Source: an uncultured Bacteroidia bacterium (GTDB lineage: Bacteria; Bacteroidota; Bacteroidia; Bacteroidales; Prolixibacteraceae). From it: a DNA stretch of 37,312 bases. Location: NCBI GenBank assembly GCA_903850335.1, contig CAINLJ010000017.1:1-37312 (forward strand), in the 5' to 3' direction. Below, piece by piece: positions 1 through 26,073 of this stretch (its first letter is position 1; each line of letters starts with the position of its first letter). The notes under the pieces are model-generated. The model ran no database searches. It was not told the DNA's origin and saw nothing but the letters and a program-made list of their open reading frames with translations. The translations under genes were made by a program, and so were the position numbers.

Positions 1-311
1 TCGTAAACTTTATGCCATGGTTTTAGAAAGGATCTCGAAACAAAATTCCACTGACTCAAGTCCGGGCTCCACCAATAGCCCCATTGGTTTGTCGAAAAAA
101 GATAGTAATCCCCTTTATAAGTGACAATTACCGGATCAGCTGTAGCCCTGTGTTTACCAACCTCCGTAAAATTTGGAATTGGACAATATCCGTAATCGAT
201 GTTCATCGGATTACAAAATGTTGTTTTTTGGGCATTAACAGGTGTTACAAACATTAGTAGTCCAAAAATTGCAAACAGCATCCCTTTAACAACTAAAACT
301 TTACTTTTCAT
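1..311 (-). CDS. GH43-like secreted glycosidase, N-terminal fragment
   Basis: This reading frame starts at the ATG complementary to 309-311 and leaves the window at base 1, so only about the first 103 codons are seen. Residues 1-28 form a typical signal peptide ending in NAQ, which predicts export. The mature part carries RATADPVIVTYKGDYYLFST. In five-bladed-propeller family 43 glycosidases an aspartate in such an ADPxxx context is the catalytic base, and it is followed by the usual YYLFST strand. It lies 44 bases after the third GH144 gene on the same strand, so it is probably the last visible gene of the PUL transcript. Family membership is inferred from the N-terminal blade only. The substrate cannot be told, and beta-xylosidase or arabinosidase labels would be guesses. 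Confidence 0.72.
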   Translation of the reverse strand, partial: MKSKVLVVKGMLFAIFGLLMFVTPVNAQKTTFCNPMNIDYGYCPIPNFTEVGKHRATADPVIVTYKGDYYLFSTNQWGYWWSPDLSQWNFVSRSFLKPWHKVY

Positions 312-355
312 CTTTTATTGTCATATTAATCCTCAAGATCTTATAATGGACTTAT

Positions 356-2536
356 TCATCGTTTTAATGTAAGTTCCTGAGTTTTTATTTCAAGTTTTTT
401 TAATCCATTTTGTATTTCCGGTGCCTGCATAAATAACTTCCATATCAAACCTGTCCGGTAGTTTTCAATCATTACTGCCATAGGAGCCTGATTGAGTCCC
501 ATGTAGATCTCTGAACACCAATTATTGGTCAGGTCAAAAGCATCTTTAAACCCATATTCTCCCCAAAGGAATTTACCATACTTAAAATAGTAATTTTTCA
601 GCGCCATCATCGACTCTTCAGGTAAATATGGGAAGGAGCTGATAGCACCTGTAGGGGCTAACTTACCGTGGTCCTGTGAGGGGACCGGTTCATCAGCAGA
701 ATAATGATATGGACCGTCACTTGCGGTAAGTCCCCAGCCATTCTCTCCATATCCCTTGTAATGTTTCGGATTCTGCAAACAGTATCTATAGTTTATTTTT
801 GCAATATTCTGATTATTAGCGAAATAGTTTGTATACTTATCGGTTATGGCATGCGGGTCATATCCCATATAGGAGTAGTGCGTAAAAAACAGAGGCCCGC
901 CGTTAGAGACACCAACATCAAGTTTAATTCCAAAATAGATATTTCCATTGGTGTACATTGACCCCTCAACGGTATTGCTCCACGCCGAACGGTATTTTTG
1001 CCCGGTACTATCCTGATTTGCCCAGCCGGAGTAATACATTGATGCAGGAACCGGATGTGAAGGTGAGGCAATTGCGAGAAGATATGTGACCATCACTTCA
1101 TTCCAACCGATTAAATTATGATTGATCACCCATCCCTGATCCGGTGACCAATGCCAAAACAGGAACTTGCTGTCGGGATAGTGTCTGAACCAGTCCCACT
1201 CTGCCTTTTCCCATATTGAAGTTATCCTGCTTCTGATCTTTTGCTCTGCAGAGTCATTACGTGAGAAATATTGCCTTGCTGCAAGCAACCCCTGCAGAAG
1301 GAATGAGGTCTCGACCAGGTCGGCACCATTATCCCGATGACCAAAAAACGGTACCACTTTACCAGTCGTGCCATCCATAAAATGAGGGTATACCCCATGA
1401 AAGGTTTCTGCCTTATTCAGGAAATTTGTAATTTTAAGAAACCTGAAAACTGATTCTTCTCTTGTGATAAATCCTCGTTCAGTACCGACGATGAGTGCCA
1501 TGATTCCAAAGCCGGAGGCACCTGTTGCAATCATATCCTGCCTGCCCGGAATATTTTCCCTGGCCATTCCACTGCCAGGTTCTGCCCCTTCCCAATAGTA
1601 CCTGAAGGCAGCCTCCTGGACCATCGTAAGTAACTCATTGTCTGACATAGGCCTTGTCGAAGCACTGGCGCAAGACGACAGCGCGGTTGATTTGTATTTA
1701 CTATTCAACAGGGAAATTTTATAATAGTATTTCTTTCCCGTTACTCCCGTAAAATCAGAGTATCTGTTAATATAAGGCTGTTGAATCCCAATCTGTTTGA
1801 ATTCCTTCCCATCTGCAGAACGATAAATCCCGACAAGATGGACGTTTTTATCAGTCACTTTTTCCCAGACAATGTCAGCATGCATCGCAAAACCTGTTAC
1901 TTTGGTTATTACCGGTAATGTGCTGATTGTATTGGAATCAGAAGGACTGAGGAGTTCGATATCATCCAAAAAAATTGTCTGCCTGGTGCTGTCCTCACTT
2001 TTCCCTTGTGAAAAGACAATGGCGATGAAATCTTCGGGCTTATCCGGATTAAAATTGGCAACTTTGGCCATTGACAGCATAACATGATGCCATCCAGTGG
2101 TTTCTATTTTGGGAATAAGAAGCAGACTGGAAAGGCTGCTGTCTCTTCTCATTAGCTGTACGGACGGCAACTCACCGCGTGATATTGCACCCGAATTACT
2201 CAAAATCCAGAAGGAGAGAAATTCCCCCTTCCTGAAATGATCCATTCCCCGTTTTTCCGGACGGTATATTACAGCCTTCCAGGTGCCCTTTGCGGAATTC
2301 TTATAGTTTAATACCAATGAGTTTCCCGGAGAATGAAATATTGTATCGCTTACAGGCAACTTCCCGTTGACGGTTTGAATGCCCGAACTTCCGGATGCAG
2401 TTGTTTTGCTGAAGAAATAGTCTCCAGTCATGGTACTGTTTGCAAAAAAACTGTAGGTATAATTGTATTCTCTTGCGACCGACATATACGAAAGCAACAA
2501 AAAACAACCCAGCAAAGCGTTTCTAACAATAATCAT
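356..2536 (-). CDS. GH144-type glucanase with N-terminal CBM-like and FN3-like modules
   Basis: The 726-residue protein is predicted to be secreted, with a signal peptide of about 1-21 (ending SVA). Residues ~25-200 look like a carbohydrate-binding beta-sandwich (GWHHVMLSMAKV and TIFLDDIELL are typical strands). Residues ~205-295 resemble a fibronectin-III module, and ~300-715 form the PF10091/GH144 (alpha/alpha)6 domain. Hallmarks seen are GASGFGIMAL, ADLVETSFLLQGLLAARQYF, GWNE, WGLTASD (D607) and MIENYRTGLIWKLFM. Characterised GH144 enzymes are endo-beta-1,2-glucanase from Chitinophaga pinensis and a sophorose-releasing exo-enzyme from Parabacteroides distasonis. The older 'glucoamylase' label for PF10091 is probably misleading here. 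The copy is odd in having N682 (LNQAP) where both neighbouring paralogues have Asp (IDQGP). It starts 24 bases after the preceding GH144 gene and is cotranscribed with it. Confidence 0.85.
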   Translation of the reverse strand: MIIVRNALLGCFLLLSYMSVAREYNYTYSFFANSTMTGDYFFSKTTASGSSGIQTVNGKLPVSDTIFHSPGNSLVLNYKNSAKGTWKAVIYRPEKRGMDHFRKGEFLSFWILSNSGAISRGELPSVQLMRRDSSLSSLLLIPKIETTGWHHVMLSMAKVANFNPDKPEDFIAIVFSQGKSEDSTRQTIFLDDIELLSPSDSNTISTLPVITKVTGFAMHADIVWEKVTDKNVHLVGIYRSADGKEFKQIGIQQPYINRYSDFTGVTGKKYYYKISLLNSKYKSTALSSCASASTRPMSDNELLTMVQEAAFRYYWEGAEPGSGMARENIPGRQDMIATGASGFGIMALIVGTERGFITREESVFRFLKITNFLNKAETFHGVYPHFMDGTTGKVVPFFGHRDNGADLVETSFLLQGLLAARQYFSRNDSAEQKIRSRITSIWEKAEWDWFRHYPDSKFLFWHWSPDQGWVINHNLIGWNEVMVTYLLAIASPSHPVPASMYYSGWANQDSTGQKYRSAWSNTVEGSMYTNGNIYFGIKLDVGVSNGGPLFFTHYSYMGYDPHAITDKYTNYFANNQNIAKINYRYCLQNPKHYKGYGENGWGLTASDGPYHYSADEPVPSQDHGKLAPTGAISSFPYLPEESMMALKNYYFKYGKFLWGEYGFKDAFDLTNNWCSEIYMGLNQAPMAVMIENYRTGLIWKLFMQAPEIQNGLKKLEIKTQELTLKR

Positions 2537-2560
2537 CAGTATTGAATCTTATGATTAATA

Positions 2561-3934
2561 TTATTCTTTTATTAACGGAGATTTAAAATCCAGCTTTTTT
2601 AATCCATTCTGAATTTCCGGGCAACTCATAAAAAGTTTCCATAATAACCCGGATCTGTAATTCTCGATCATCACAATTGCAGGACCTTGATCAATAGCGA
2701 GATATTGACTTGGAAACCAATTTTTCTCAATGGAGAATGCATCATAGAATCCGTATTTTCCCCAGATTTTGTCACCTAAATCATTATAAAAGTATTTCAA
2801 AGCTTCCATTGAATATTCAGGAGTATATGGAAAAGATGCAAGCGCGGCTGTAGGAGAGATAACTCCCAGATCGTTGGCAGAGTCTGGCAAATGAGCCGCA
2901 TATCCATTTATCGAATAGCTTGCCGTTAATCCCCAGCATTTTCTGCTGTATCCGGCAAACTTTTTTGGATTTTGCACACACCACTCATGATTTATCAGGG
3001 TTTGATTCTTGTTTTCTTCCCAATAATTGGCATACGAGTCCTTCAAACCACGTGGATCAAGGCCAAGGTAAGAATAATGCGCCCAAAAAAGAGGTCCGCC
3101 AGATTTCTCTGCATAATTATGATTTAAAGTGAGGGGAAATCCAAATTTCTGATGTTTCCCTTTTATAGCACCATTTCGTGCCCATCCCTTGTGATATATA
3201 GATGGATCAGCACCATTTGCAGGGGACGACACAGCAAGTATATAGGCAATTATGCACTCGTTGTACCCTGTAATTGGAAAGTTCATTTCCCATAAATATT
3301 CGGGAGACCAATGCCAGTAAAGGACATCCTTCCCATGGGTAAACCAGTTCCATTCAACACCTCGCCAAAGCGTATCTATATCTTTGCTTAATAATTTCTC
3401 CTGATTATTTCCGTTTATAAAATACTGGCGGGCAGTTAATAATCCCTGCATTAGATAGGCAGTTTCTACTATATCACCTCCATTATCCTTTCTCCCAAAG
3501 GGTTTTACTTTCCCTGTCTCTCCATAGATCCAGTGAGGCCATGCTCCATGAAATCTATCAGCCTTCGAAAGGTAATTTACAATGTGCCGAAGCCTCTCAA
3601 ATCCCTGATCCCGTGTAATAAACTTTCTCTCGATACCTGTCAGAATAGCCATAATTCCAAATCCTGAACCTCCTGTAGTGATTACTGATTTGTCGTTGAG
3701 CTGATAGATTCCATCAAGGTGTATCCTTTCACAGGCAAGTCCTGAAACAGGTTCAGCACCATCCCAAAAATACTGGAAGGTGTTATATTCAACTAGTGTA
3801 AGTAATGAATCGTCAGATATAACAGATTTACCAGTCACTTTTGTGCTCTTAATCCTATTATTTCCATCAAAAGGATACCAACTACAAAAAACCAATAAGC
3901 CTGCACAAATGAAATAGGGAATATAATTTTTCAT
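2561..3934 (-). CDS. GH144-type glucanase, minimal domain, probable lipoprotein
   Basis: At 457 residues this is the shortest of the three tandem paralogues, essentially a bare PF10091/GH144 domain (~40-450) behind a hydrophobic leader. The leader contains LLVFC, with C17 as a possible but non-canonical lipobox cysteine, so lipoprotein or periplasmic placement is uncertain. Conserved segments are TGGSGFGIMA, GGDIVETAYLMQGLLTARQYF, GYNE, WGLTAS and IDQGPAIVMIENYRSGLLWKLF. Two departures stand out. Y340 (TASY) replaces the Asp found in both neighbours (TASD), and C68 (GLACER) replaces an Arg (GLARER or GMAREN). The predicted role is cleavage of beta-1,2-glucan or its oligosaccharides, but the TASY change may alter mode or activity. 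It lies 34 bases after the upstream and 24 before the downstream GH144 gene. Confidence 0.84.
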   Translation of the reverse strand: MKNYIPYFICAGLLVFCSWYPFDGNNRIKSTKVTGKSVISDDSLLTLVEYNTFQYFWDGAEPVSGLACERIHLDGIYQLNDKSVITTGGSGFGIMAILTGIERKFITRDQGFERLRHIVNYLSKADRFHGAWPHWIYGETGKVKPFGRKDNGGDIVETAYLMQGLLTARQYFINGNNQEKLLSKDIDTLWRGVEWNWFTHGKDVLYWHWSPEYLWEMNFPITGYNECIIAYILAVSSPANGADPSIYHKGWARNGAIKGKHQKFGFPLTLNHNYAEKSGGPLFWAHYSYLGLDPRGLKDSYANYWEENKNQTLINHEWCVQNPKKFAGYSRKCWGLTASYSINGYAAHLPDSANDLGVISPTAALASFPYTPEYSMEALKYFYNDLGDKIWGKYGFYDAFSIEKNWFPSQYLAIDQGPAIVMIENYRSGLLWKLFMSCPEIQNGLKKLDFKSPLIKE

Positions 3935-3968
3935 AGTTTAAATATTTAAAAATATTAAAGCTTAAAAC

Positions 3969-5627
3969 TTACAAATCAGGGCTCTGAAAACCAAGATTTT
4001 TCATTCCAATTTTTACTTCCGGGCAACTCATGAATAAATTCCACAACAAGCCGGAGCGGTAATTTTCAATCATCCCTATTTGGGGACCCTGGTCAATAGC
4101 CAGAAAAGAGTCTGCAACCCAAAAACTATCTAAATTAAATGCATCCGTAAAGCCGTACTGGCCCCAAATCTTATCCCCCAATTTATAGTAGAAGAAGGAT
4201 AAAGCCTGAAGCGATTCGGCAGGTGAAAACGGCAGTGACGAGATAGCTGCAGTCGGTGCAATAACGCCAACATCGTTCGTAGGGGAACTGGCAGTATATC
4301 CGTTTTCGATATCACTTGCGGTAAGTCCCCAGCACACATTGCTGTATCCATAGAATTTTCGGGGATTTGCCTTGCAATATTCTAAATTTATTTTTGTATG
4401 GTTCACGACCTGAGTCCAGTAATTTGCATAAGCATCGGACAACCCATGTGGATTAATTCCAAGAAATGAATATTCCTCAAAAAACAGCGGACCACCATAG
4501 GCATCACCCAAAGGAAGTTGATAATTATAATAAGTGCCATTATTTTTCATGGCTCCATTCCTTGCAAAACCATTGTCATAAACGACTTTTGCAATCGGAT
4601 GAGTATTTGAAGAGGCAGCCAGAACATAGGTGATCAGGCATTCGTTCCAACCCTGTATTGGCATATTCATGACCCAGTTTTTTGTTGGACTCCAGTGCCA
4701 GTAAAGCTTGTTGCTTCCATCCTTGTTAAAGAAATCCCATTCAACGGAATTCCATAGTCCATTTATGTCAGATCTTAACGCCGTTTCATCAGTGCTTGTC
4801 CCATCAAAGTACTGTCTAAGTGTCAATAACCCCATCATCAGATAGGAAGTTTCAACGAGGTCTGCACCATCGTCATTGGCTGAGAACGGGATAACTACAC
4901 CCGTGGAGCCGTTAAGCCAGTGAGGGAATGCACCATGAAAATGCTGCGCTTTGTTTTTAAGAAAGTCAACAATCTTTTGGGCACGGATTAATCCATCACT
5001 TCTCGATATAAAGCTTCTGCTTATAGCCACTGGAATACTCATCAAACCAAAACCCGACCCTCCGGCAGTCACAATATCACCCGAAGAATTACGTTCACGT
5101 GCCAATCCTGAGATTGGATGCCCGAAGTCCCAAAAGTATTTGAATGTTTGTTTTTGAACCAGGGTTAATAAAGCATCACTCGAAATTGTCGTGAATTTAT
5201 CTGTTGAATCAATTCCCGTTTTAAAATTTATTGAGAATGGAGTTTGATTATACCCTCCCGCTTTGGACTTTAAAGAGCTTGAAACATTCAGTCTGTAATC
5301 TGATAAAAATCGAAGTGAGGACGCTGGTTTTATGGAGATTAAACTGTCCTTTTTCGAAAAATCCAGGCTAAGCGGAATATTTGCAGCGTTTTTATCTGTT
5401 AATGTTATTACGGACTGGGCAGACAATTGGTCAACAGGGGTCGAAAACTGAACTTTAAACACAGGAATGGCGTTTATCCCTTTGTAGTCGAAGCCTGAAA
5501 ACCCATCATTAACCAGGATCGATGTATAGCTGAATGAAAGATTAACCGGAACTGTCCCACCTGATTTATCCTTTTTGCAACTCCAAACCAAAAAAAGCAA
5601 CAAAACTGGTAATAGTATTTTTAACAT
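3969..5627 (-). CDS. GH144-type glucanase lipoprotein with Ig-like (Big_5) N-terminal domain
   Basis: The 552-residue protein begins with a clear lipoprotein signal (FLVWSCKKDKSGG, lipobox Cys at about residue 16). Acidic residues right after Cys, the usual surface-export signal, are lacking, so periplasmic or surface placement is open. Residues ~28-140 look like a Big_5-type Ig fold (PVFKVQFSTPVD, LSLDFSKKDSLISIKP and YRLNVSSSLKSKAG are typical strands). GH144 follows at ~150-545. Of the three paralogues this one keeps every shared motif: GLARER, ADLVETSYLMMGLLTLRQYF, GWNE, WGLTASD (D439) and IDQGP (D512). It is therefore the safest candidate for an active endo-beta-1,2-glucanase. It is the first enzyme gene after the surface-binding genes and is separated from them by 139 bases containing a strong hairpin. 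Confidence 0.86.
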   Translation of the reverse strand: MLKILLPVLLLFLVWSCKKDKSGGTVPVNLSFSYTSILVNDGFSGFDYKGINAIPVFKVQFSTPVDQLSAQSVITLTDKNAANIPLSLDFSKKDSLISIKPASSLRFLSDYRLNVSSSLKSKAGGYNQTPFSINFKTGIDSTDKFTTISSDALLTLVQKQTFKYFWDFGHPISGLARERNSSGDIVTAGGSGFGLMSIPVAISRSFISRSDGLIRAQKIVDFLKNKAQHFHGAFPHWLNGSTGVVIPFSANDDGADLVETSYLMMGLLTLRQYFDGTSTDETALRSDINGLWNSVEWDFFNKDGSNKLYWHWSPTKNWVMNMPIQGWNECLITYVLAASSNTHPIAKVVYDNGFARNGAMKNNGTYYNYQLPLGDAYGGPLFFEEYSFLGINPHGLSDAYANYWTQVVNHTKINLEYCKANPRKFYGYSNVCWGLTASDIENGYTASSPTNDVGVIAPTAAISSLPFSPAESLQALSFFYYKLGDKIWGQYGFTDAFNLDSFWVADSFLAIDQGPQIGMIENYRSGLLWNLFMSCPEVKIGMKNLGFQSPDL

Positions 5628-5667
5628 TCTTTGGTTTTGAATTCGTTAGCCTTTATCAAGCTTTTTA

Positions 5668-5699
5668 AAGGTTGCCCGAAAGAAAATCCGGGCAACCTT
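5668..5699 (-). terminator. Strong hairpin between surface-protein and enzyme genes of the PUL
   Basis: The arms AAGGTTGCCCG (5668-5678) and CGGGCAACCTT (5689-5699) are perfectly complementary over 11 bp with a 10-base loop. On the transcribed minus strand the stem is followed by TTTAAAAAG rather than a clean U-run. A leaky terminator or an mRNA-stabilising element protecting the susCD/LamG message fits better than a full stop, because no promoter is visible before the enzyme genes. A second short palindrome, ATCCTGATAATCAGGAT (5749-5765), sits next to the LamG stop codon. Confidence 0.6.
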
Positions 5700-5766
5700 G
5701 TAATGAGCAATTCAGGCAATTTTTAACTAACAAAAACACTTCAATCACATCCTGATAATCAGGATA

Positions 5767-7515
5767 TTATTTTTCATCGTTCCAAATGGTTTGAACTTCA
5801 GCCTGGGTAAGCGCTTTGTTGAAAATACGAAGTTCATCAATCAGACTCAGGTCTGAAAGGTGACCCCAGTCAATAAAGTTAGGAGCACCGGAACCAATTG
5901 TCAGTGATGTACAGCCTGTCCAGTCTATTCCCCCTGTAAAAGTGGAAGCTGGACGAGTCAGTTCGCCATTGATATAAATACTGCTTTCAGTATCCGATAC
6001 AGTAATAGCAACGTGGGTCCATTCGCCTAGGGCCGGATCGATAAGACCACCATCATTCCAGCTTTCACTGGCTCCAAATCCAACATTTGATTTATATCGC
6101 TGAGATGTGCCGGAGGCTTCTCTGAAAATTCGTATACCCTTTGTTCTGCTTGCATCAAAGTTTGCTGCTCCTGAAGGGCTAATGCAAATTATTCCGGCTC
6201 TGTCCGGGGTTGCATTAACTTTGGTCCAGAATACGGCACTAAACTGGGATGTTTTAACCAGGTTGGTTGTTGGGAAAGTGATGTAAGAATCTGTAGCACC
6301 GGCATATGCCTGACCCTTCTTGCCTGCTGCAAAATCAGGTGATCCAACCTTTGCCGCTGCAGTATTTGAATTTAATTCCTTGTAGTTATCTTCAAAAGGC
6401 ATATAAAATACCTCTCCGCTATATTTTGGGGTATAGGGGGAGTCGTACTGAATAATTGCCTGAATGTCTGATGGATTTAAAGCACGGTTAAATATCCGGA
6501 GTTCATCAATGAAGCTGTTGTCTGACAAATGTCCCCAGTCTTTAAAATTAGGAGCACCTGAACCAATAGAAAGCGCGTCAACTCCTGTCCAGTCGATTCC
6601 TGAAAATGCTCCACGGCTCACGGCTACACCGTTTAAATAAACTACGCATTCTGATCCTGAAATAGTAAAGGCGACATGCACCCACTGGCCAGTCTGTTTA
6701 ATACTTGCTGCAGCTCCTCCGTCAAACCAGCTTTCGGAGCCACCACTACCCGCATTAAGTTTAATCGTCTGACCATTAGCTGATGCCTCACGGAATAATC
6801 TGAATCCTTTTGTCCTGCTCGCGTCAAAATTGGCAGCTCCGGAAGGACTCATTACAAGAATACCAGCCCTGTCGGGTGTTGCATTTAATTTGTACCAGAA
6901 TGCTGCACTAAACTCGGCATTCTTTAAACTGGCCGCTGGAAAAGTAATATAGGAATCAGTAGCTCCGGCGTAGGAGTTTAAACCTTTCAGAGCCTGTCCT
7001 GCAAAACCTGGAACTCCAACCTTGGTCGCATCAACGAAGCTTACTTTTTCGCCATAATCGCCATCAAAAGGCATATAAAAAATTTCACCCGAAAATACAG
7101 GGACATAAGGTGGTTTTTTCTCAAAGTTGATCACCTTATTAGTCACTTTACCCGAAAGGTCGGTAGCCTTAATTGTCAGGATATGAGCTCCGTTTGAGAC
7201 TTTATCATAGAGATATGATTTTACTGCTCGTCTGTAATCCTTAAAACTACTGTAACTTGTCAGTTCAGTTCCATCCATGATAACGGAAACGGATTTTAGT
7301 TCGATATCATCAGTTACCACAAACTGGATATTGACAGAAGCAAGTAGTGTAGGTACTTGTATCTTTTGACCTTCAGCCGGATAGCTGACAACTACTACAG
7401 GAGCCGCCTGATCTGCACCCGGTGCGACATATGCAATTGGATCAATCCCTTTATTGCAGGAGATTAACATTGCAATACCTATTAAAAAAGCTAATATATA
7501 CTTTGTCGTTTTCAT
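5767..7515 (-). CDS. Surface lipoprotein with two LamG-like domains (probable surface glycan-binding protein)
   Basis: The 582-residue protein has a classical lipoprotein signal (LIGIAMLISCNKG, lipid-bearing C20). Residues ~38-132 look like an Ig-type domain. Two LamG/concanavalin-A-like domains follow at ~139-350 and ~360-580. The two are near copies: both contain AGATDSYITFP, ATPDRAGI, SPSGAANFDASRTKG, SIGSGAPNF or TIGSGAPNF, DWGHLSD and IDELRIFN. It occupies the place after susD where SusE/F-like surface glycan-binding proteins are usual. The inferred role is therefore holding the glycan at the cell surface for SusCD. LamG domains can also be catalytic in some glycosidase families, but no catalytic motif is evident here. 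It lies 31 bases after susD on the same transcript. Confidence 0.82.
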   Translation of the reverse strand: MKTTKYILAFLIGIAMLISCNKGIDPIAYVAPGADQAAPVVVVSYPAEGQKIQVPTLLASVNIQFVVTDDIELKSVSVIMDGTELTSYSSFKDYRRAVKSYLYDKVSNGAHILTIKATDLSGKVTNKVINFEKKPPYVPVFSGEIFYMPFDGDYGEKVSFVDATKVGVPGFAGQALKGLNSYAGATDSYITFPAASLKNAEFSAAFWYKLNATPDRAGILVMSPSGAANFDASRTKGFRLFREASANGQTIKLNAGSGGSESWFDGGAAASIKQTGQWVHVAFTISGSECVVYLNGVAVSRGAFSGIDWTGVDALSIGSGAPNFKDWGHLSDNSFIDELRIFNRALNPSDIQAIIQYDSPYTPKYSGEVFYMPFEDNYKELNSNTAAAKVGSPDFAAGKKGQAYAGATDSYITFPTTNLVKTSQFSAVFWTKVNATPDRAGIICISPSGAANFDASRTKGIRIFREASGTSQRYKSNVGFGASESWNDGGLIDPALGEWTHVAITVSDTESSIYINGELTRPASTFTGGIDWTGCTSLTIGSGAPNFIDWGHLSDLSLIDELRIFNKALTQAEVQTIWNDEK

Positions 7516-7546
7516 TTTCTTTTCTTTTAATGATCAGTATTTAGGA

Positions 7547-9079
7547 TTATTTACCTTTTAGAGCAGGTAACTGGTCAATCTGAGCCTGTGGATAAGGAAG
7601 GAATGCCTTGTCCATAGTGAAAGTTCTTCCCTCATAACTCAACTCAGCAGTATTTCCAAGCCTGACCATATCCCAGAAACGGATTCCCCATTCCATGGCA
7701 AGCTCAGCGTATTTCTCATCCATAACAGCTTGTGTATTGACACCTGAAACAGATGGTAAACCAGCCCTGTTCCTCACCAGATTAACGGCTTGGTCAGCAG
7801 TTCCTGCAGAACCTGAAGCTCCATGTGTAAGTGCTTCAGCATACATTAGTAAAATTTCGGGATACCTGATAATTGTAAAGTTTTTATTGGTTCCATAGCC
7901 CGTGCGGCCTGGAGTAAGCTGATCGGAAGGCAGATATTGTTTACCGCTCATAAATAGATAACGCGGAAAATCATTAAACTTATCACCGGACCTTGTCGTA
8001 TTTGTTATCCAGGCTGGTAAATTGGCGTATTTTGAATCTTTTTTAAGTTCAGCGATCCCACGGTTTGTGAAAATAACACTGGTTTCAAGACGGACGGTTT
8101 CACCCCTGTCCAACATAAATTTGATATATTTCATGCTCGGCTCCCAAAAACCCCAGCCTCCGGATGCTCCGGTAACCTTCGGGGTCCAGTCGCCAGGACC
8201 AAAAAAGTCCCAGAGATATCCTTTTACATCACCCGAACCCAATCCAAAATCGGAATACTGCCACTCTAACAGGTTTTCACTGTTTAACTTACCCTTGATC
8301 TTGAACAGGTTATAATAATCACTTTCAAGAGTGAATTTTCCTGAACTGATGATCTGACCGGAAGCATCAGCAACAACCTGATAATTTTTAAGTTCAAGGT
8401 TTGCTATTGCTTTCAATGCAAGAGCAGCATATTTAGTAACTCCACCACGGATATCTGCACGTTGATTAGGATTCATGTCAGGAAGTAATGGAATTGCTTC
8501 ATCCATTTGAGCCGAAATATGTTTCATTACTTCATCTTTGGTAGACAGTTTGGCTACAAGTAATCCGGATGGATCAGAACTTGTCGGGATGAAAATTGAG
8601 CCCCATACTCTTGACAGGATAAGAAGCGACCATGCCCTGAAAACTTTTGCTTCTGCAATATATTGGTCACCAAGAGCCTTATTTGGAGCACTTTTCTGGT
8701 ACAGAGCAGTTTGTTCCATTGCTGAATGGGCAACAAAAACATTGTGATAGAAGTTCTGCCATACCGAATTGATCATCCAGTAACCATTGTCATATTTATA
8801 GGCATCAGTATCCGCGTAGGGTTGCTGATCTCCCAGACCACCAGGATTAACATCATCACCGCGGACAGCAATCAGCGGGTAATTTTCCCAGTAAAGATCA
8901 TACATCACTGAATACAAACCCTTCAGTGGCAGGTCCATGTTGCTCGATATCGTGTAATCCGTTTGTGCGGTAAACGACTTATTTTCTGCCAGATCATCTA
9001 ATCTTTTTTGGCACGACGTGGCTCCCAGTAATGCAATTACGAATAAAGCCAGTTTTGTATATTTGAGTATCAGTTTCAT
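7547..9079 (-). CDS. SusD/RagB-family glycan-binding outer-membrane lipoprotein
   Basis: The 510-residue protein has a lipoprotein signal (FVIALLGATSCQKRLDD, C23). It shows the SusD family layout: an N-terminal SusD-like region with an AKVFRAWSLLILSRVWG helix, ALKAIANLELKNY TPR-like helices, and the C-terminal RagB/SusD domain (RYPEILLMYAEAL, AVNLVRNRAGLP, ELAMEWGIRFWDMVRLG). SusD proteins sit on the outer face of the SusC transporter, bind oligosaccharide and act as a lid. The gene follows susC by 21 bases, which is the canonical order. The ligand cannot be read from the sequence, but the GH144 genes in the same unit suggest beta-1,2-gluco-oligosaccharides. The length is normal for the family. 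Confidence 0.95.
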   Translation of the reverse strand: MKLILKYTKLALFVIALLGATSCQKRLDDLAENKSFTAQTDYTISSNMDLPLKGLYSVMYDLYWENYPLIAVRGDDVNPGGLGDQQPYADTDAYKYDNGYWMINSVWQNFYHNVFVAHSAMEQTALYQKSAPNKALGDQYIAEAKVFRAWSLLILSRVWGSIFIPTSSDPSGLLVAKLSTKDEVMKHISAQMDEAIPLLPDMNPNQRADIRGGVTKYAALALKAIANLELKNYQVVADASGQIISSGKFTLESDYYNLFKIKGKLNSENLLEWQYSDFGLGSGDVKGYLWDFFGPGDWTPKVTGASGGWGFWEPSMKYIKFMLDRGETVRLETSVIFTNRGIAELKKDSKYANLPAWITNTTRSGDKFNDFPRYLFMSGKQYLPSDQLTPGRTGYGTNKNFTIIRYPEILLMYAEALTHGASGSAGTADQAVNLVRNRAGLPSVSGVNTQAVMDEKYAELAMEWGIRFWDMVRLGNTAELSYEGRTFTMDKAFLPYPQAQIDQLPALKGK

Positions 9080-9100
9080 AATAATAACTTTTTTAACAGA

Positions 9101-12100
9101 TTAAAAATTGATATTCAGACCAATCGTATATACTGCCGGGATTGGATAGGTTTGACTATCGACGCCGTTTGCAACCTCTGGATTAAATCCATGGTATTTG
9201 AAAACAGTCAGTGGACGTTCAGCAGTTAAGGAAACCTTCATGTTTGGCAACTTCGCACCAAATAATTCTTTCCTTTTTATATTATATGCAAGTTGCACAT
9301 TTTGAACGCGGAAGAAAGAACCATCTTCAACAAAATAGGTCGACATCTTCTGATTCCAGGATCTGCGCAATCCTGAAGAGGAAGGATAAATATTCGAGGT
9401 ACCCTCACCATGCCAGCGATGAATTGCAAGATCTGCGTCCATGTTACCATCAGCAGTCCAGATTACGTTACCACGTTTACGGTTAAGAATTTTATTTCCT
9501 GACTGACCCATGATGTTTGCGGAAATCTCAAAGTTGTCATATTGAATTCCTATGTTCGCACCATACATCAGTGTAGGGAAATAAGATCCAAGAACGACTC
9601 TGTCCTTATCATCAATCTTCCCGTCATTATTCTGATCCTTATACTTGAAATCTCCAGGAACGAGCCCGTTAGCAACCGCAATTGGATCAGCAGCTATTTC
9701 AGCAGCATTCTGATATACACCAGCAACTGTCTGTCCATAGAAAGCCAGTAAGGGTTGTCCCACAATTGAACGCTGACGGAATTCTGCCTGACCACCATCA
9801 ATATATGGCTGACCATAAAGATTCCTAACCTCATTCTTAAGTGTAGAAATATTGGCACCTACATTATAGCTCAGTTTATCTCCAATCTTATTACTCCAGT
9901 TTAGAGCAAGTTCGAAACCTGAATTCCTGATAACACCCACATTCTTAAGTACACTTCCGCCAACAGCCGGAATCGACACATTAATTGCAGCATTCTTTGT
10001 GTCACGGATGTAGTAATCGGCATCAACACTTAATTTGTTTTTGAAAAATTTACCTGTGATCCCGACGTTCTGCTCCTCTGTGACTTCCCATTTAAGTGAG
10101 GAGAAAGTACTTGAAGTTGTTGTCCCCGGAACTAAAGCACCGTTGATAGCAACTGTAGTAGGTACAGTCGTTGTTGCACCATCGCTGGCCTGAATCTTGT
10201 CGTTACCTAATTTTCCCCAGCTGCCACGGAGTTTAAGAAAATTAATAGATCCATTGCCTTTCAAAAAACTTTCTTCTGATAATACCCAGCCTGCACCAAC
10301 AGTTGGGAAATAACCCCATTTCTCCTGGTACTTTGAACTTCCATCGGCTCTCATCGTGCCGTAGAGTAGATATTTATCTTTAAAATTATAGGAAAGACGA
10401 CCAAAATAGGATAGACCGTACTGATGAACACCGCCATCGCCAACGCCAGCTGAAACAATTTTTCCAGCCTGACTGATATACCACGACTGTTGATGTTCTG
10501 TAGGAAAATCGAGTCCCTGGGCAAAAAGTGTATTATATGCTTCGTCGCGATAGGAAGTACCAGCCATTACAGAAACATTATGATCACCGTAACTATTGGT
10601 GTAGGTCAGAACATTATCCCAGATTTGATTATAGTAGGTAGTAGCAATTTTATTGATAGAGGCATCGGGATTCTGGAAACTGTTACCAATGAAATAAGGC
10701 AGGTTCACATCACGTTCATCCAGTGAGGTGAAGGCTGTGTTATAAGTAGACTTAAAGGACAGTTTCTTCGGAATAAGATCTACTTTTGCATAGAAATTTG
10801 CAAGTAATTTCTTGATTTTCAGTTGACCGTTGCTAAATGTAAGCGGGATAAAAGGATTTTGTCCGCTTCTGTAGCCAATATCCTGAGCGTTTGCAAATCT
10901 GATTGGTTTTGCATTTACAAGAGATTCATCGTACACAGGCATGATTGGCACGGCATAATATGCCTGCTCCCATGCAGCCGATTGTGCATTATTTTTTAAA
11001 GCGTTACTAAAATTCATATTTCCGCCGACCGTCAGCCAGTCAGTTGCATTCAAGTCAAGTTTTGCGCTGACGTTCATGCGGGTATAATCATTCTTCATGT
11101 TCAGGATACCGTCCTGAGAAAAATAGTTTGTACCAATATAATAGGAGGACTTCTCAGAACCGCCGGAGAAATCAACGCTATGATTTTGTATCGCAGCTGG
11201 ACGCATTACCTGTTTATACCAGTCAGTATTTACATCGGGAACGTTAGGGTTTACCCGGCTTCTGCCGTACCGTTGCATAGCGTTGAGAACAAACATTGCA
11301 TCCGGGGCTGAGCCTGACTCATTGGCCATGTCGGTAAACTGTGCGGCATTAGCCATCTTTAAAACATTTTGTCCTACCTGTGTTCCATAGTAGCCATTAT
11401 AGCTAATCTCAGTTTTTCTGTTTAAAGCCCCTGATTTGGTTTCGATAAGTACAACACCATTTGCAGCCCTGACACCATAAATTGCCGCTGCAGATGCATC
11501 CTTAAGAACAGAAATTGATGCAATATCATTAACATTCAAAAAATCGATATTGTCAAAAAACATTCCATCAACAACATATAAAGGAGCTTCATTATCGGCG
11601 CCCGGATATGAACCAATACCACGAACCCTGATAGTTGGAGAATCACCAGGTGCTCCACTGCTGACAATCTGAACACCTGCTATCTTACCCTGCAATGCCT
11701 GCATTGCCTGTCCTGAAGGTGATTTCAAAAGTTCTTCAGACTTTACAGTTGTAATAGATGAAGTAAGGTCCTTCACTTTCTGAGTACCATAACCAACAAC
11801 CACAACCTCGCTTACATCAACTGCCTGCTCCTTTAATTGTACGTTGATCGTCGTCTGGTTATTAATTCCAACTTCCTGGGTTGTCATGCCAACAAAGCTG
11901 AAGACAAGCACGCCGTTACCTGCAGCCTTAATTGTATAACTCCCGTTAATATCAGTAATTACACCGGTAGTAGTACCCTTTACAACAATAGTTGCACCAA
12001 TTACAGCATCACCATTTAAGGCATTCTTTACTTTTCCGGAAATTGTTATACCCGGTTGAGCATAAAGAAAAGTAACTGATAAAAATAGATTCAACAGAAA

Positions 12101-12115
12101 GATTAGTTTTTTCAT
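9101..12115 (-). CDS. SusC/RagA-family TonB-linked outer-membrane transporter
   Basis: The 1004-residue protein has a signal peptide of ~1-19 (FLYAQ). A carboxypeptidase-D-like regulatory domain follows at ~23-95 (ISGKVKNALNGDAVIGATIVV). Then come the SusC-type linker VVVVGYG, a plug domain at ~108-225 (GKIAGVQIVSSGAPGD, TIRVRGIGS, PLYVVDG, SVLKDASAAAIYGVRAANGV) and a long beta-barrel ending in a terminal Phe (GLNINF). SusC proteins import oligosaccharides across the outer membrane using TonB energy. It is the first gene of the leftward PUL transcript, and its 349-base upstream spacer is shared with the divergent regulator. The length is normal for the family. I found no clean TAnnTTTG element in front of it, which is compatible with activator-dependent transcription. 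Confidence 0.96.
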   Translation of the reverse strand: MKKLIFLLNLFLSVTFLYAQPGITISGKVKNALNGDAVIGATIVVKGTTTGVITDINGSYTIKAAGNGVLVFSFVGMTTQEVGINNQTTINVQLKEQAVDVSEVVVVGYGTQKVKDLTSSITTVKSEELLKSPSGQAMQALQGKIAGVQIVSSGAPGDSPTIRVRGIGSYPGADNEAPLYVVDGMFFDNIDFLNVNDIASISVLKDASAAAIYGVRAANGVVLIETKSGALNRKTEISYNGYYGTQVGQNVLKMANAAQFTDMANESGSAPDAMFVLNAMQRYGRSRVNPNVPDVNTDWYKQVMRPAAIQNHSVDFSGGSEKSSYYIGTNYFSQDGILNMKNDYTRMNVSAKLDLNATDWLTVGGNMNFSNALKNNAQSAAWEQAYYAVPIMPVYDESLVNAKPIRFANAQDIGYRSGQNPFIPLTFSNGQLKIKKLLANFYAKVDLIPKKLSFKSTYNTAFTSLDERDVNLPYFIGNSFQNPDASINKIATTYYNQIWDNVLTYTNSYGDHNVSVMAGTSYRDEAYNTLFAQGLDFPTEHQQSWYISQAGKIVSAGVGDGGVHQYGLSYFGRLSYNFKDKYLLYGTMRADGSSKYQEKWGYFPTVGAGWVLSEESFLKGNGSINFLKLRGSWGKLGNDKIQASDGATTTVPTTVAINGALVPGTTTSSTFSSLKWEVTEEQNVGITGKFFKNKLSVDADYYIRDTKNAAINVSIPAVGGSVLKNVGVIRNSGFELALNWSNKIGDKLSYNVGANISTLKNEVRNLYGQPYIDGGQAEFRQRSIVGQPLLAFYGQTVAGVYQNAAEIAADPIAVANGLVPGDFKYKDQNNDGKIDDKDRVVLGSYFPTLMYGANIGIQYDNFEISANIMGQSGNKILNRKRGNVIWTADGNMDADLAIHRWHGEGTSNIYPSSSGLRRSWNQKMSTYFVEDGSFFRVQNVQLAYNIKRKELFGAKLPNMKVSLTAERPLTVFKYHGFNPEVANGVDSQTYPIPAVYTIGLNINF

Positions 12116-12464
12116 ATGTTAAATTTTTAAAATATTTGTTACGAAGATACTACTGACGCAAGCCTAAAGTTAGAAAATCGGTACACTTCTGTCACTCCAT
12201 ATCATTTGTATCTTTTACATTACCTCATAATTACCACATCATAAAAATTTTTTATTACATATCTATTTAAATTTCATTGCTTTAAATTCTTCAATATTTA
12301 ATTAATGTAATTTGATAAAGGTAGACCTATGACTAAAAAGTGAGTTAATAAATCAAATTATCGGATGATTTTATAGAATATTAGGTTATTTTTGTTGAAA
12401 TAAATGTTGAATTTCCAAATTAATAAATCGGCATAACATTAAATAAAAGTTAATTTTTCGGTTT
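12116..12464. promoter_or_regulatory. Divergent PUL control region between susC and its regulator
   Basis: This is the only gene-free stretch above 300 bases. It is AT-rich and encodes nothing recognisable. It holds a perfect 9-bp inverted repeat, TAATTTGAT (12308-12316) and ATCAAATTA (12352-12360), 35 bases apart. Inside that lies the smaller palindrome AGGTAGACCT (12319-12328). It also holds a TATTTTTG -7-like element (12387-12394) pointing toward the regulator. Binding sites for the LuxR-type regulator are expected here. The repeats are candidates only, because AT-rich arms can arise by chance. Confidence 0.5.
12387..12394 (+). promoter_or_regulatory. Candidate -7 promoter element of the PUL regulator
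   Basis: TATTTTTG matches the Bacteroidota -7 consensus TAnnTTTG, 70 bases before the regulator start codon. No matching -33 TTTG is seen at the expected distance. Confidence 0.35.
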
Positions 12465-15320
12465 ATGAATCGTACCATGAAAATCCTATTTTTAAAATCC
12501 TCACGAAAGATACTTTGTGCTCTTATTGCCTCTTTTTTGACAGTATTTTCAACGCTACCCTTACAGGCTCATAATTATGAAAATCCGGTTGTGAAGAATT
12601 TTTCAAAATCAGATTATAATGCCGACAACCAAAACTGGTCGGTTGCCGAAGATTCAATGGGGAATGTTTATTTTGCCAATAATAAGGGGTTGCTGGAATT
12701 TAATGGAATATCCTGGAAACTATACCCTTCTCCAAAGGGGAATACTATCCGTTGCGTTGCAATAGGTCCGAATAACAGAGTTTTCACGAGTGGATACAGG
12801 GAGTTAGGATATTGGGAACGCAATCCTTCAGGAACTCTAAAATACATTTCACTTAAGTCGTATGCCGAAAAATATTTCCTGGCAAATGAAGAGTTTTGGA
12901 AAATTATTCCTTTAGGCAATAAGGTCTATTTCCATTCATTCGGACAAATGACAATCTGGGATGGCAAACAAACCATTCAAATCAGATACCCGTTCTCTAA
13001 CACAATGTATGAGCTAAACGGGAAAATCATCATCGATCAGCCAGACGGATTGTATTCAGTTGAAAATGATCACCTGGTGCCATACCTGACAGGGTCATTC
13101 TTTAAACAGAAACAAGTCAGATTCTTCTTTCAGGATGAAAATAACAGAATGGTTATTGGAACTTTCTCCGATGGGATTTACAGTTATAATGGCCTTAATT
13201 TTAAGGTTATGTATCCGGAATGGAAAGATTATTTAATTAGAAATAAGGTAAATCAGGCTGCACGATACTCAAACGGGAGTATTATTATAGGAACCCACCT
13301 CGACGGAGTTATCGCGTTTGATAGTAATGAGAAGATGATTTTCAAATTAAATACTCAAAATGGGTTACAAAACAATACTGTTCTGGGGCTTGTAATTGAT
13401 AAGAACCAAAATGTCTGGCAGGCACTGGATAAAGGCATCGATTTTATAACCTTCCATGAAGAAGGATCTTTTGTTTTACACCCTGTAAAAGATATTGGGG
13501 CTGTTTATTCCGCTGCAATATTGAACAAAAAATTATATCTGGGGACAAACCAGGGACTTTATTACAAGTTTTTGGATGAGTCTGACCAGAAATTCAGGAT
13601 AATACCTCAATCAGAGGGTCAGGTCTGGAGCTGTAATATCTTTAACGGAAAATTACTTGCTGGTCTCAATAACGGAACATTTGTTGTTTCAGAGGAGGGA
13701 TTAAAAAAAATATCAGACGTGAACGGTGTCTTTGCGATCACCCCTGACACAAAGAAACCTGGTTTTTTACTTCAATCAACCTACTCGGACATTGTATCTC
13801 TGGATTTCACAGGCCGTGAACCACGATGGAATAAAAACCTGAAAAATTTTAATGACCTTATCCAGTATATTGAAGTTGATTTATATGGAAATATTTGGGC
13901 CGGACATATGCACCGCGGAATATACCGGCTACAACTTTCTGAGAACAGAGATGAAGTCACAAAATCCACCTATTTTGGCGAGAATTCTCCATTCGGGAAA
14001 GACTATGGCATTCATCCTTTTAAAATCGAAGATCGTATAGTTTTTACAACAGGAGAAAAGCTATTTACTTATGATGAATTAAAGGATTCAATTGTCGTAT
14101 ATAAGGATTTAAATGTCCTTTTAGGCCCCTTTGCAAGTGCTCACAAGATATTTCAGGCGCCTAACCACAACTATTGGTTTATAAACAAAGAGTCTATTGG
14201 ATTATTCCGCATAAAAGACAATCAGGTAAGTCTTGTCAAGTCATATCCGTCTAAATTATTTCTAAATCAAATAATTGAGAATTTTGAGAATATATATCCA
14301 CTTTCCGAAACCGAAGCCATCCTTTGTCTTGAGAATGGATATGCCTTGCTAAATGCCATCCAGCCTGAGAGTGAAACTCTTATTAAGAATAAACGACTGA
14401 CCTTACGGGAATTTCTGACTTTTGATCAGCGAGGGGTTGTTGACACCCTTTCGCCCTCTCAATCCAGGTTTACTTTAAAATTTAACCAAAGTAATGCACA
14501 GATAAAATTCTCTTTCCCGTTGTTTACCGCTGACAAGATAGTTTTTCAGGCTTACCTTGAAGGTATTGATCCGGGGTGGCGGCAATCGGTATCACTTCCG
14601 GTTTTTAAGTTCGAGAGACTACCGGATGGGAAATACACATTAAAGGTAAAAGCAATTGACCTTTGGGGTGCTGAAAGTAAAACTGAAGAGGTGAAGCTGG
14701 TGATTTTACCTCCCTGGTACCTGACAATATGGGCCAAGCTGGGATATGTCCTTTTGATAGCCTTGATACTGTGGTATTTCAGATTGCGAGTGATTACAAT
14801 TACGAGACGCAAGGAAAAGCGAAAAAGAGCCGATAAAGAAAAAGAGCTAATCAGGCTACGAAACGAAAAATTACAGGATGAAATCTCTTTCAAGAGTCAG
14901 GAACTAGCCAATTCAACAATGCTGATTATTAAAAAAAATGAATTTCTTATTGAATTAAAACGCGAATTGAAAATCCAGAAAAATCAATTGGATTCGCGCT
15001 TTCCAGACAAATACTATCTTCAGCTTGTGCGAAAGATTGATGAAAATATTGCGAGTCATGACGATTGGAAAACCTTTGAAACAAATTTTGAGAGGGCACA
15101 CGAGGAGTTCATTATCAAGCTAAAAAATGGCTATCCAAAACTTACCCCAAGCGATCTCAGGCTGTGTGCATACCTGCGCATGAATCTATCTTCCAAAGAG
15201 ATCGCACCATTACTTGGAATTTCGGTACGCGGACTTGAGAATCACAGGTACCGGCTACGCAAGAAGTTAGGACTTGATGCGGACGCCAACCTTACTGAGG
15301 TAATGATGAATACAAAATAA
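12465..15320 (+). CDS. Membrane-spanning propeller / Y_Y_Y / LuxR-HTH transcriptional regulator of the PUL
   Basis: The 951-residue protein has an N-terminal signal or anchor (to about residue 36, LPLQAHN). A long periplasmic beta-propeller sensor follows with repeats such as WSVAEDSMGNVYFANNKGLLEFNG (shortened motif: DSMGNVYFANNKG) and NQNVWQALDKGIDFI. Residues ~680-750 form a Y_Y_Y (triple-tyrosine) Ig-like domain. One transmembrane helix lies at ~753-774 (GYVLLIALILWYF), then a charged coiled coil. A C-terminal GerE/LuxR-type helix-turn-helix occupies ~890-940 (LTPSDLRLCAYLRMNLSSKE, APLLGISVRGLENHRYRLRK). There is no histidine kinase or receiver domain, unlike hybrid two-component PUL sensors. 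Binding of the released oligosaccharide is thus likely passed straight through the membrane to the HTH. It is divergent from susC and most likely activates it. A start at the Met codon at 12477 is equally possible. Confidence 0.87.
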   Translation: MNRTMKILFLKSSRKILCALIASFLTVFSTLPLQAHNYENPVVKNFSKSDYNADNQNWSVAEDSMGNVYFANNKGLLEFNGISWKLYPSPKGNTIRCVAIGPNNRVFTSGYRELGYWERNPSGTLKYISLKSYAEKYFLANEEFWKIIPLGNKVYFHSFGQMTIWDGKQTIQIRYPFSNTMYELNGKIIIDQPDGLYSVENDHLVPYLTGSFFKQKQVRFFFQDENNRMVIGTFSDGIYSYNGLNFKVMYPEWKDYLIRNKVNQAARYSNGSIIIGTHLDGVIAFDSNEKMIFKLNTQNGLQNNTVLGLVIDKNQNVWQALDKGIDFITFHEEGSFVLHPVKDIGAVYSAAILNKKLYLGTNQGLYYKFLDESDQKFRIIPQSEGQVWSCNIFNGKLLAGLNNGTFVVSEEGLKKISDVNGVFAITPDTKKPGFLLQSTYSDIVSLDFTGREPRWNKNLKNFNDLIQYIEVDLYGNIWAGHMHRGIYRLQLSENRDEVTKSTYFGENSPFGKDYGIHPFKIEDRIVFTTGEKLFTYDELKDSIVVYKDLNVLLGPFASAHKIFQAPNHNYWFINKESIGLFRIKDNQVSLVKSYPSKLFLNQIIENFENIYPLSETEAILCLENGYALLNAIQPESETLIKNKRLTLREFLTFDQRGVVDTLSPSQSRFTLKFNQSNAQIKFSFPLFTADKIVFQAYLEGIDPGWRQSVSLPVFKFERLPDGKYTLKVKAIDLWGAESKTEEVKLVILPPWYLTIWAKLGYVLLIALILWYFRLRVITITRRKEKRKRADKEKELIRLRNEKLQDEISFKSQELANSTMLIIKKNEFLIELKRELKIQKNQLDSRFPDKYYLQLVRKIDENIASHDDWKTFETNFERAHEEFIIKLKNGYPKLTPSDLRLCAYLRMNLSSKEIAPLLGISVRGLENHRYRLRKKLGLDADANLTEVMMNTK

Positions 15321-15324
15321 GGGT

Positions 15325-17136
15325 CTATAACAGGCAATCTTTGGATTCCTGAATATTGAACAGGCGATTAAGCAGACTCAAATCATTTAGCTCCTTAAGC
15401 AACGATTCGATTGTCGTTTTAGGCACGTCAAAAATATCCAGTACCAACAGGCCATCAATACAATCGTTAAATTTGGGGTCAACATTAAAGGCGATAATTT
15501 TTGCATTTAATCCCAGATATTTTTTCAAAAGAACAGGCAACCCACTATTATACTGGTCGATATCTCCAATGAACTTATCCAGGGAATGCAGGTTAGGCGT
15601 CATATTCTCAAGAGCTGTATTTAGGTGCTGATCATTTGTCTTCACCTTATAGCGATTCCTGGGTTTCACGAATGAGGCTCTTTTGTAATCGAAATAATTC
15701 GCCATTACATACCTTATTATCAGTTCTTTAGATATGCCTGAATAGGTATTGCTTATACTTACCGGACCTATGAGGAAACGGTATTCAGGATTTTTCAGCA
15801 AGAAGTAGAGAATCCCTTTCCAAAGTAAAAACAGAGGAAGTGGCTTTCGCTGATAATCTTTAACAATAAACGATCTGCCCAGTTCCAGAGAATGTTTCAA
15901 AGTATCCACAAAGCCGGGCTTCATCTTGAATAGACTTTGTGTATAAAAACCTTTAATCCCGAACTGATCATAAATTTCACGCCCTTTACCAATCCGGTAT
16001 CCTCCAACAATCTGCTGACCTTCATTATCCCAAATGATCAGCTGATCGTAATAAAGGTCAAATTCATCAATATCTGTTGATTGGTTTGTTCCCTCACCTA
16101 CTTCACGAAAAGTAATTTCACGAAGCCGGCCCAGTTCTTTCATCAGATAAACTATCCTATTCGAAGGAGCACAAAAAACAGAGTAATTCTTAATTGTGAA
16201 CAGCAGATTATCCTTACGTAATTGTTCTATCTCGTTAACAATAAATTCATGAGGCATCGCTTCTGCTATTGGCTGGGCAACAGGCTCACTCTTTAACGAA
16301 TAATTAAAAAAGTGTTTCACCTCTATTCCTGAATCCAGACAATAAGTTTTCGAACGTAAATAGCGCCCTAATTGGTGAATGTCGGTGAATTTATTTTGTT
16401 CGTTAACTGAAATTGGGTTTCCAATTCTGATTTTGATAGTTTTATCCTTTTTGTTGATGATCTCTGAAGGAAGTTTTACAGTCCTCAAGGATGGGTGAAT
16501 ACGACCTAAAAGGTGAAACAACCTGCTGTTGCTGCCATGGAAATAGATAGGGACAACAGGAACATTCGCTTTTTTGATGAATCGGAGTGCAGAAATTAAC
16601 CACTCACGATCCGTAATCACTTTCGATGCATAATTGGTCGAAACCTCTCCTGCAGGAAAGAAACTCAGTACTCCGCCATTATTGAGATGGTCCAGGGCAG
16701 TTTTAAGCCCTCCAATACTTGATGCAGCGCGTGGATTGTTCTCAAAGGGGTTTACTGCAAGAAAATAATCAGATATTGGTTCTACCTTTTTCAATAAGAA
16801 ATTTGCGATAACCTTATGGTCATTCCTCACCATAGAAAGAAGCTTGATAAGTAATATTCCATCTATTCCTCCATAAGGATGGTTTGAAACAGTTATAAAA
16901 CTGCCGGTTGTGGGGAGCTTTCTTAAATCCTTTTCATCGAAGTCGAGTGTGACGTTGAGATATTCCAGAATGCCGTTAATTGATTCAATCCCATTCTTAT
17001 CGCTGATATTATCGTACAATTTATTAATTTGATTGAATTGTAACAGGTGCATCAGCAATCTGGCAAAATATTCTCCCCCAAGATATTGCAAAAACGGACT
17101 TACCTTCAATAAATCCTGTGGTTTAACTAGTTTCAT
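15325..17136 (-). CDS. Bifunctional OlsF-like O-acyltransferase / N-acyltransferase (amino-acid lipid synthesis)
   Basis: I place the start at the ATG complementary to 17134-17136 (MKLVKPQDLLK, 603 residues). The 36 extra upstream codons look non-coding and would include a -7-like promoter element (17160-17167). Residues ~65-255 form a PlsC-type acyltransferase with SNHPYGGIDG (H86, D92; five residues between His and Asp rather than the usual four) and FPAGEVS (160-166). Residues ~325-500 form an OlsB/hemolysin-type GNAT N-acyltransferase (REITFREVGEGTNQS, YRIGKGREI, LELGRSFI, FLIGPVSIS). OlsF of Serratia and Flavobacterium joins these two activities to make ornithine lipids, and related enzymes make glycine lipids. 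The predicted product is an N-acyl, O-acyl aminolipid in the membrane, with the amino acid unknown. The gene is convergent with the PUL regulator, with four bases between the stops. Confidence 0.78.
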   Translation of the reverse strand: MKLVKPQDLLKVSPFLQYLGGEYFARLLMHLLQFNQINKLYDNISDKNGIESINGILEYLNVTLDFDEKDLRKLPTTGSFITVSNHPYGGIDGILLIKLLSMVRNDHKVIANFLLKKVEPISDYFLAVNPFENNPRAASSIGGLKTALDHLNNGGVLSFFPAGEVSTNYASKVITDREWLISALRFIKKANVPVVPIYFHGSNSRLFHLLGRIHPSLRTVKLPSEIINKKDKTIKIRIGNPISVNEQNKFTDIHQLGRYLRSKTYCLDSGIEVKHFFNYSLKSEPVAQPIAEAMPHEFIVNEIEQLRKDNLLFTIKNYSVFCAPSNRIVYLMKELGRLREITFREVGEGTNQSTDIDEFDLYYDQLIIWDNEGQQIVGGYRIGKGREIYDQFGIKGFYTQSLFKMKPGFVDTLKHSLELGRSFIVKDYQRKPLPLFLLWKGILYFLLKNPEYRFLIGPVSISNTYSGISKELIIRYVMANYFDYKRASFVKPRNRYKVKTNDQHLNTALENMTPNLHSLDKFIGDIDQYNSGLPVLLKKYLGLNAKIIAFNVDPKFNDCIDGLLVLDIFDVPKTTIESLLKELNDLSLLNRLFNIQESKDCLL

Positions 17137-17159
17137 TTGGCATTTAATGATATTGGGTT

Positions 17160-17167
17160 CAAAAATA
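17160..17167 (-). promoter_or_regulatory. Candidate -7 promoter element of the OlsF-like gene
   Basis: The minus strand reads TATTTTTG, matching TAnnTTTG, 23 bases before the chosen ATG at 17136. It lies inside the longer open frame and so argues against the upstream start. No convincing -33 element is seen. Confidence 0.4.
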
Positions 17168-17342
17168 GAAAATTGGAGACAATAAATGCTATATTTCTTC
17201 TTTTTTGCGCTGCAAGTATCATTTCCAATTTGGTCATTGAACAAGCACGTCTATTTGTTGTTGTAAAGTTGAATGGCTGAAGGTATAAAAAATTTGATTC
17301 AATGCAGACAGGCTGTTTAATTGATGTAATTTAGCCATTAAA

Positions 17343-26047: not shown

Positions 26048-26065
26048 GTATTCTAAATGAACCGA

Positions 26066-26073
26066 CAAAAATA
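26066..26073 (-). promoter_or_regulatory. Candidate promoter of the LTA-synthase-like gene
   Basis: The minus strand reads TATTTTTG (TAnnTTTG). A TTG lies 23 bases upstream, at 26097-26099, as a possible -33. The ATG at 26047 begins 18 bases after the element, giving a short leader. Confidence 0.45.

Follow-up and report, generated by a model that had tools for sequence, protein, structure and literature searches.

The analysed window, a stretch of 37,312 nt, contains a PUL that starts at the contig end (contig C17 of genome G000, a Bacteroidota assembly of 5.5 Mb in 284 contigs with 95.63% completeness). The genes susC and susD, a gene for a lipoprotein with two LamG domains, three full-length PF10091 (GH144) genes and the start of a GH43 gene are located on the same strand, from 12115 down to 3 (-), and a regulator gene is directed divergently. 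This gene set had been listed in the first-pass annotation, and Pfam, TIGR04056 and the ORF coordinates confirmed it at its place. The SusC-type TonB-linked outer membrane transporter (9101..12115, -) scored 798.2 bits against TIGR04056 (cut-off 368.25). It adjoins the SusD-type lipoprotein (7547..9079, -), which matched PF07980 and PF14322 above cut-off and, as judged by eye, has a lipobox-like start. Together with the carbohydrate-active enzymes, this pair identifies the locus as a PUL. No sulfatase genes were found among the PUL genes scanned.

The protein encoded at 12465..15320 (+) was annotated as a one-component regulator based on Pfam matches to Reg_prop (27.4, cut-off 20.4) and Y_Y_Y (27.4, cut-off 26.6). 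Its C-terminus resembles a LuxR-like HTH, with GerE at 19.2 bits, under the Pfam cut-off of 23.5; a membrane segment was recognized by eye, and no kinase domain was called in the Pfam scan of the window protein. The lipoprotein-like product of the gene at 5767..7515 (-) contains a Big_7 domain (PF17957) and a pair of LamG-type domains (PF13385 in two stretches). Its relatives occupy the equivalent position in other loci, e.g., L033, L035 and L037, and it is likely to be an accessory surface glycan-binding protein.

The three GH144 genes differ in build. Enzyme a (3969..5627, -, 552 aa) carries Big_5 (PF13205, 30.8 bits) in addition to the GH144 domain (PF10091, 239.9 bits) and has a lipoprotein-like start, as seen by eye. 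Enzyme b (2561..3934, -, 457 aa) consists of the catalytic domain alone (273 bits), and enzyme c (356..2536, -, 726 aa) has an N-terminal region and the GH144 domain (222.7 bits). Each of these scores lies at least 195 bits over the PF10091 cut-off of 27, which excludes chance, and no PF10091 match besides a, b and c was found in the 5.5-Mb assembly at E <= 0.001. The "CBM+FN3" part proposed earlier for c was not called by Pfam, which gave PF10091 only, but the N-terminal region of c is included in its alignment with BDI_3064 (see below).

The founding GH144 member, CpSGL (5gzh), scored 465 bits with a, 708 bits with b and 437 bits with c, which places all three in GH144 by similarity. For enzyme b, this endo-beta-1,2-glucanase is also the top solved relative. 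The top solved relative of enzyme c is 5z06 (BDI_3064), matched at 825 bits over residues 24-716, i.e., nearly end to end and including the N-terminal region. That of enzyme a is 4gl3, a "putative glucoamylase" (503 bits) that is itself uncharacterised. The original assignment to GH144 agrees with these three structure matches as well as with the PF10091 scores of 222.7-273 bits; the concern raised with it, that the domains might lie outside GH144 in another PF10091 clade, is not applicable here, as two of the enzymes are nearest to named GH144 members.

A tree was built from GH144 catalytic domains of at least 340 aa, shorter pieces being excluded (n = 193, and n = 188 after the removal of identical ones). 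Enzymes a, b and c fell into different clades of 28 (support 0.992), 99 (0.997) and 8 (1.0) domains, respectively, all of which also include domains from other genera. The clade of c contains L086:7387-9552, which is near-identical to BDI_3064 over 703 residues. All eight members of this clade share a 41-residue loop, compared with stretches of 17-34 residues in the remaining 180 of the 188 domains (24 in a and 28 in b), and this loop may matter for exo action. Full-length similarity with the N-terminal region, clade and loop all join enzyme c to BDI_3064, which we take to be the exo GH144 enzyme of Parabacteroides distasonis; the title of Shimizu 2018 names this species. We therefore predict that c is likely a BDI_3064-type, sophorose-releasing exo-enzyme (EC 3.2.1.214), while b is a predicted CpSGL-type endo-beta-1,2-glucanase and a is likely a surface endo-beta-1,2-glucanase. 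The endo/exo split suggested at first reading is consistent with the clades, the loop and the BDI_3064 match; the surface/periplasm split suggested for the three enzymes may also apply. Sophorose-releasing exo-acting GH144 is described in passages of PMC8861115 and PMC11842490.

CpSGL E211 corresponds to E226 of enzyme b (residue numbers shifted by 15 relative to the 5gzh chain), which is kept in all 188 domains. E157 of b (CpSGL E142) and D154 are kept in 183/188, and D150 in 181/188; all four acidic residues are present in a, b and c. According to the cited part of PMC12102758, the E211Q mutant of CpSGL suffers a drastic loss of activity, and E142 is named in a passage of PMC11842490.

The GH43 gene is cut by the contig end, so that only its first 103 codons (3..311, -) lie in the window. 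This piece by itself matched no Pfam family and was named from a relative, the 586-aa GH43 of the same-genus locus L033 (GH43 and F5/8C by Pfam). Residues 1-103 of this relative match the window at 76%, and residues 86-586 match contig C281 of the same assembly at 87%. The GH3 that comes next after GH43 in L033 has an 82% match on C281, adjoining the remainder of GH43. Pfam analysis of the C281 genes also placed the remaining GH43 with F5/8C and GH3 domains at the end of this contig. Moreover, positions 1-53 of the window, within the GH43 gene, are identical to 53 bases in the end region of C281 (G000:C281:31800-31922, equal to L066:18801-18923). These matches strongly suggest that the GH43 and GH3 genes of C281 are physically joined to the PUL. 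The GH43-like start of the first-pass annotation is thus indeed GH43, as seen through the L033 relative, with the correction that its remainder, together with GH3, is on C281. The best match of this GH3 was JMB19063 (1259 bits), and it scored 1066 bits against 5xxl, a "periplasmic beta-glucosidase", and 558 bits against Listeria Lin1840. The last 70 bases of C281, past the 53 shared ones, diverge from the window. A repeat was considered as the reason for the contig break and rejected, as the assembly contains no further good match to this tail, which may represent a strain variant or a branch of the assembly.

To describe the spread of such loci, 199 related genomes were searched, and PF10091 matches were found in 89. 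Among 17 other genomes of the same genus, nine have a match and three (G002, G005 and G012) have three GH144 together, as in the window. The loci from named genomes are the best 80 of at least 591, ranked by likeness to enzyme b; their flanks reach up to 10 kb and are in some cases ended by the contig, so the gene counts are lower bounds, and the gene labels are best BLASTP matches to window and L033 proteins rather than family scans. Within these best 80, one GH144 is present in 40 loci, two in 37 and three in two, i.e., L132 (Pontibacter mucosus DSM 100162) and L138 (a Sphingobacteriales MAG, with the third copy past a SusC); for the remaining one (L173), the ORF caller used gave no GH144. 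SusC and SusD occur together in 58 of the 80, the other 22 having no pair in the stretch covered, and GH3, GH43, regulator and LamG relatives were detected in at least 55, 38, 30 and 12 loci, respectively. The full order of regulator, SusC, SusD, LamG, GH144a, GH144b, GH43 and GH3 is present in L081, L085 and L163. Similar loci with SusCD and GH144, often with GH43 and GH3, are thus found across Bacteroidota, and the presence of three GH144, against one or two in most relatives, is uncommon but within the known pattern.

Some same-genus PULs differ in single genes. GH144 b of L035 (10715-12076) and of L039 (5864-7225) is only 54-56% identical to that of the window, while most of the neighbouring genes are 61-82% identical, LamG of L039 (47%) being an exception. 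This looks like the replacement of a single gene within a conserved operon. In L040, GH31 (7261-9789) occupies the place of GH144 c in the window.

The first-pass annotation regarded the arrangement as one not yet described. However, GH144 beta-1,2-glucan PULs are counted among the abundant ones in a passage of PMC6499787, two-GH144 clusters appear in the cited parts of PMC8072126 and PMC8861115, and three GH144 together recur in the same-genus genomes and Pontibacter noted above. GH144 PULs of deep-sea Bacteroidetes are also mentioned in PMC10405439. A PUL with three GH144 was not found named in the main-text passages covered by a limited literature search (including PMC9122927), and we do not claim its absence from print. 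The PUL of the window therefore belongs to a known and frequent kind, with one GH144 more than most of the relatives examined.

Among the closest systems, L132 of Pontibacter mucosus DSM 100162 has the regulator, SusC, SusD, a-, b- and c-type GH144, GH43 and GH3 in one stretch; it differs in its GH43 (only 44% identical), in the location of GH144 c after GH43 and in having no LamG called. The Parabacteroides distasonis PUL (NZ_OY725801.1, L086) likewise contains the regulator, SusC, SusD, BDI_3064-type and CpSGL-type GH144, GH43 and GH3. Unlike the window, it carries two GH144 instead of three, no LamG was called, and the gene order is different; it has two GH43 and two GH3. In the Maribacter cluster, as presented in the cited part of PMC8072126, SusCD, GH144 and one GH3 are shared with the window, whereas sulfatase genes are also present and the GH144 number two, one fewer. 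The cited part of PMC8861115 gives Ignavibacterium album two putative GH144, for which outer and inner roles are suggested. This cluster differs in carrying GH94, the binding protein of an ABC transporter and a transferase of GH35, and a TonB-dependent transporter is only suggested there.

Based on the above results, the locus is very probably a PUL for scavenging beta-1,2-glucan, a polysaccharide that other bacteria produce, as first proposed, and the probably linked GH3 adds to the sequence support. The SusC and SusD pair in 58 and GH3 in at least 55 of the best 80 GH144 loci also speak for this reading. We suggest the following pathway. On the cell surface, SusCD and the LamG lipoprotein would capture the glucan or pieces of it and take these up. 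Internal bonds of the chain would be cleaved by a, probably at the surface, and by b, probably inside, and c would trim the oligosaccharides to sophorose. The GH3 of C281 may then convert sophorose and short oligosaccharides to glucose, and GH43 may take off a substituent or act on a linked glycoside. On sensing a released oligosaccharide, the divergent membrane regulator would switch the operon on. The locus would be a compact set that combines GH144 of the endo and the exo type, probably with GH3. GH94 and OpgG/D families were not found in the genome itself (95.63% complete; the glucan synthase was searched via its GH94 domain), which fits scavenging. For the same families and within the same search, the possibility that the organism makes its own beta-1,2-glucan was rejected. 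Several points count against a beta-1,2-glucan PUL: the solved protein nearest to enzyme a is uncharacterised, GH43 is present and its type occurs also without GH144, a GH144-bearing Bacteroides PUL includes an enzyme for another linkage (see below), and 22 of the best 80 GH144 loci have no SusC and SusD pair in the stretch covered.

The GH43 type of the window (at least 62% identity) was found in 26 genomes, its own included, and a strict tie of GH43 to GH144 was rejected, as PF10091 is without a match in six of them (G001, G009, G013, G024, G066 and G087; completeness 84-98%). GH3 nevertheless adjoins GH43 in G009 and G013 (pairs L177:6982-11024 and L182:90-4276). In 15 genomes a listed GH144 lies on the same contig within ~15 kb, and in the window's own genome the two are placed across the contig break. 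The remaining four are G193, with a 220-aa GH144-like piece nearby, G080, with two GH144 on another contig, G073, with a listed GH144 on another contig, and G177, in which the 4.8-kb contig has no GH144.

What form natural beta-1,2-glucan takes is a question raised by the recurrence of GH43, which hints at a decorated substrate. To our knowledge, GH43 has no known place in the breakdown of plain beta-1,2-glucan. Since plain glucan should not need this enzyme, it may be that the substrate in nature carries decorations or that the GH43 branch is unusual in its activity. It is possible, if rather doubtful, that the actual target is a glycan, decorated or mixed, built on a backbone of beta-1,2-glucan, and that GH43 would strip its side groups before GH144 and GH3 act. 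The putative catalytic triad (D52, D148 and E217 in L096 numbering, positions that we assigned from GH43 motifs) is invariant in all 25 aligned sequences, in agreement with this reading, as is the presence of a GH43 of this kind in 38 of the best 80 (of at least 591) GH144 loci. A sulfatase gene lies after GH3 in L047, and the marine GH144 PULs with sulfatase in a passage of PMC6499787 were read by their authors as pointing to a decorated substrate. However, the other 42 of these best 80 loci have no such GH43 in the stretch covered, the six genomes above have the nearest GH43 type without any PF10091 match, and solved relatives do not give the specificity of GH43. By sequence, the best of them is distant (E 4.6e-08), and a fold search with the GH43 model (pLDDT 83.9) returned BT_3662 first (TM 0.44/0.55), followed by single-domain GH43 structures of differing activity (TMt up to 0.76). 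The literature search found no GH43 subfamily reported alongside GH144. We consider it unlikely, but worth stating, that the partner represents a GH43 branch with a new activity, that the substrate of these widespread PULs is an undescribed decorated beta-1,2-glucan and that the three GH144 handle differently decorated stretches of its backbone.

It appears very improbable that one or more of the PF10091 enzymes, up to all three, cleave a different linkage, e.g., that of a beta-1,2-galactan or an alpha-glucan. The Pfam name "putative glucoamylase" would imply an alpha-glucan, and a Bacteroides PUL bearing GH144 includes, according to the cited part of PMC11739564, a GH35 beta-1,2-galactosidase that is inactive on beta-1,2-glucooligosaccharides, so that GH144 alone does not fix the whole substrate. 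Nevertheless, among named enzymes, those nearest to b and c act on beta-1,2-glucan, and the four mapped acidic residues are present in all three proteins. Three adjacent genes of one family on one strand could stem from a recent local tandem duplication that left redundant enzymes, yet this is hardly credible, because each GH144 belongs to a clade of its own that is shared with other genera; identity to b is 52% for a and 44% for c.

Beyond the PUL, two further genes were recorded in the window. A PF00884 (sulfatase) gene is located at 24101-26068, ~9 kb past the regulator and amid housekeeping genes, and was not counted in the PUL. At 15325-17244, a fused two-acyltransferase gene resembles ornithine-lipid synthase OlsF and glycine-lipid GlsB/GlsA, with scores under the curated cut-offs (419 vs 620 bits for OlsF).
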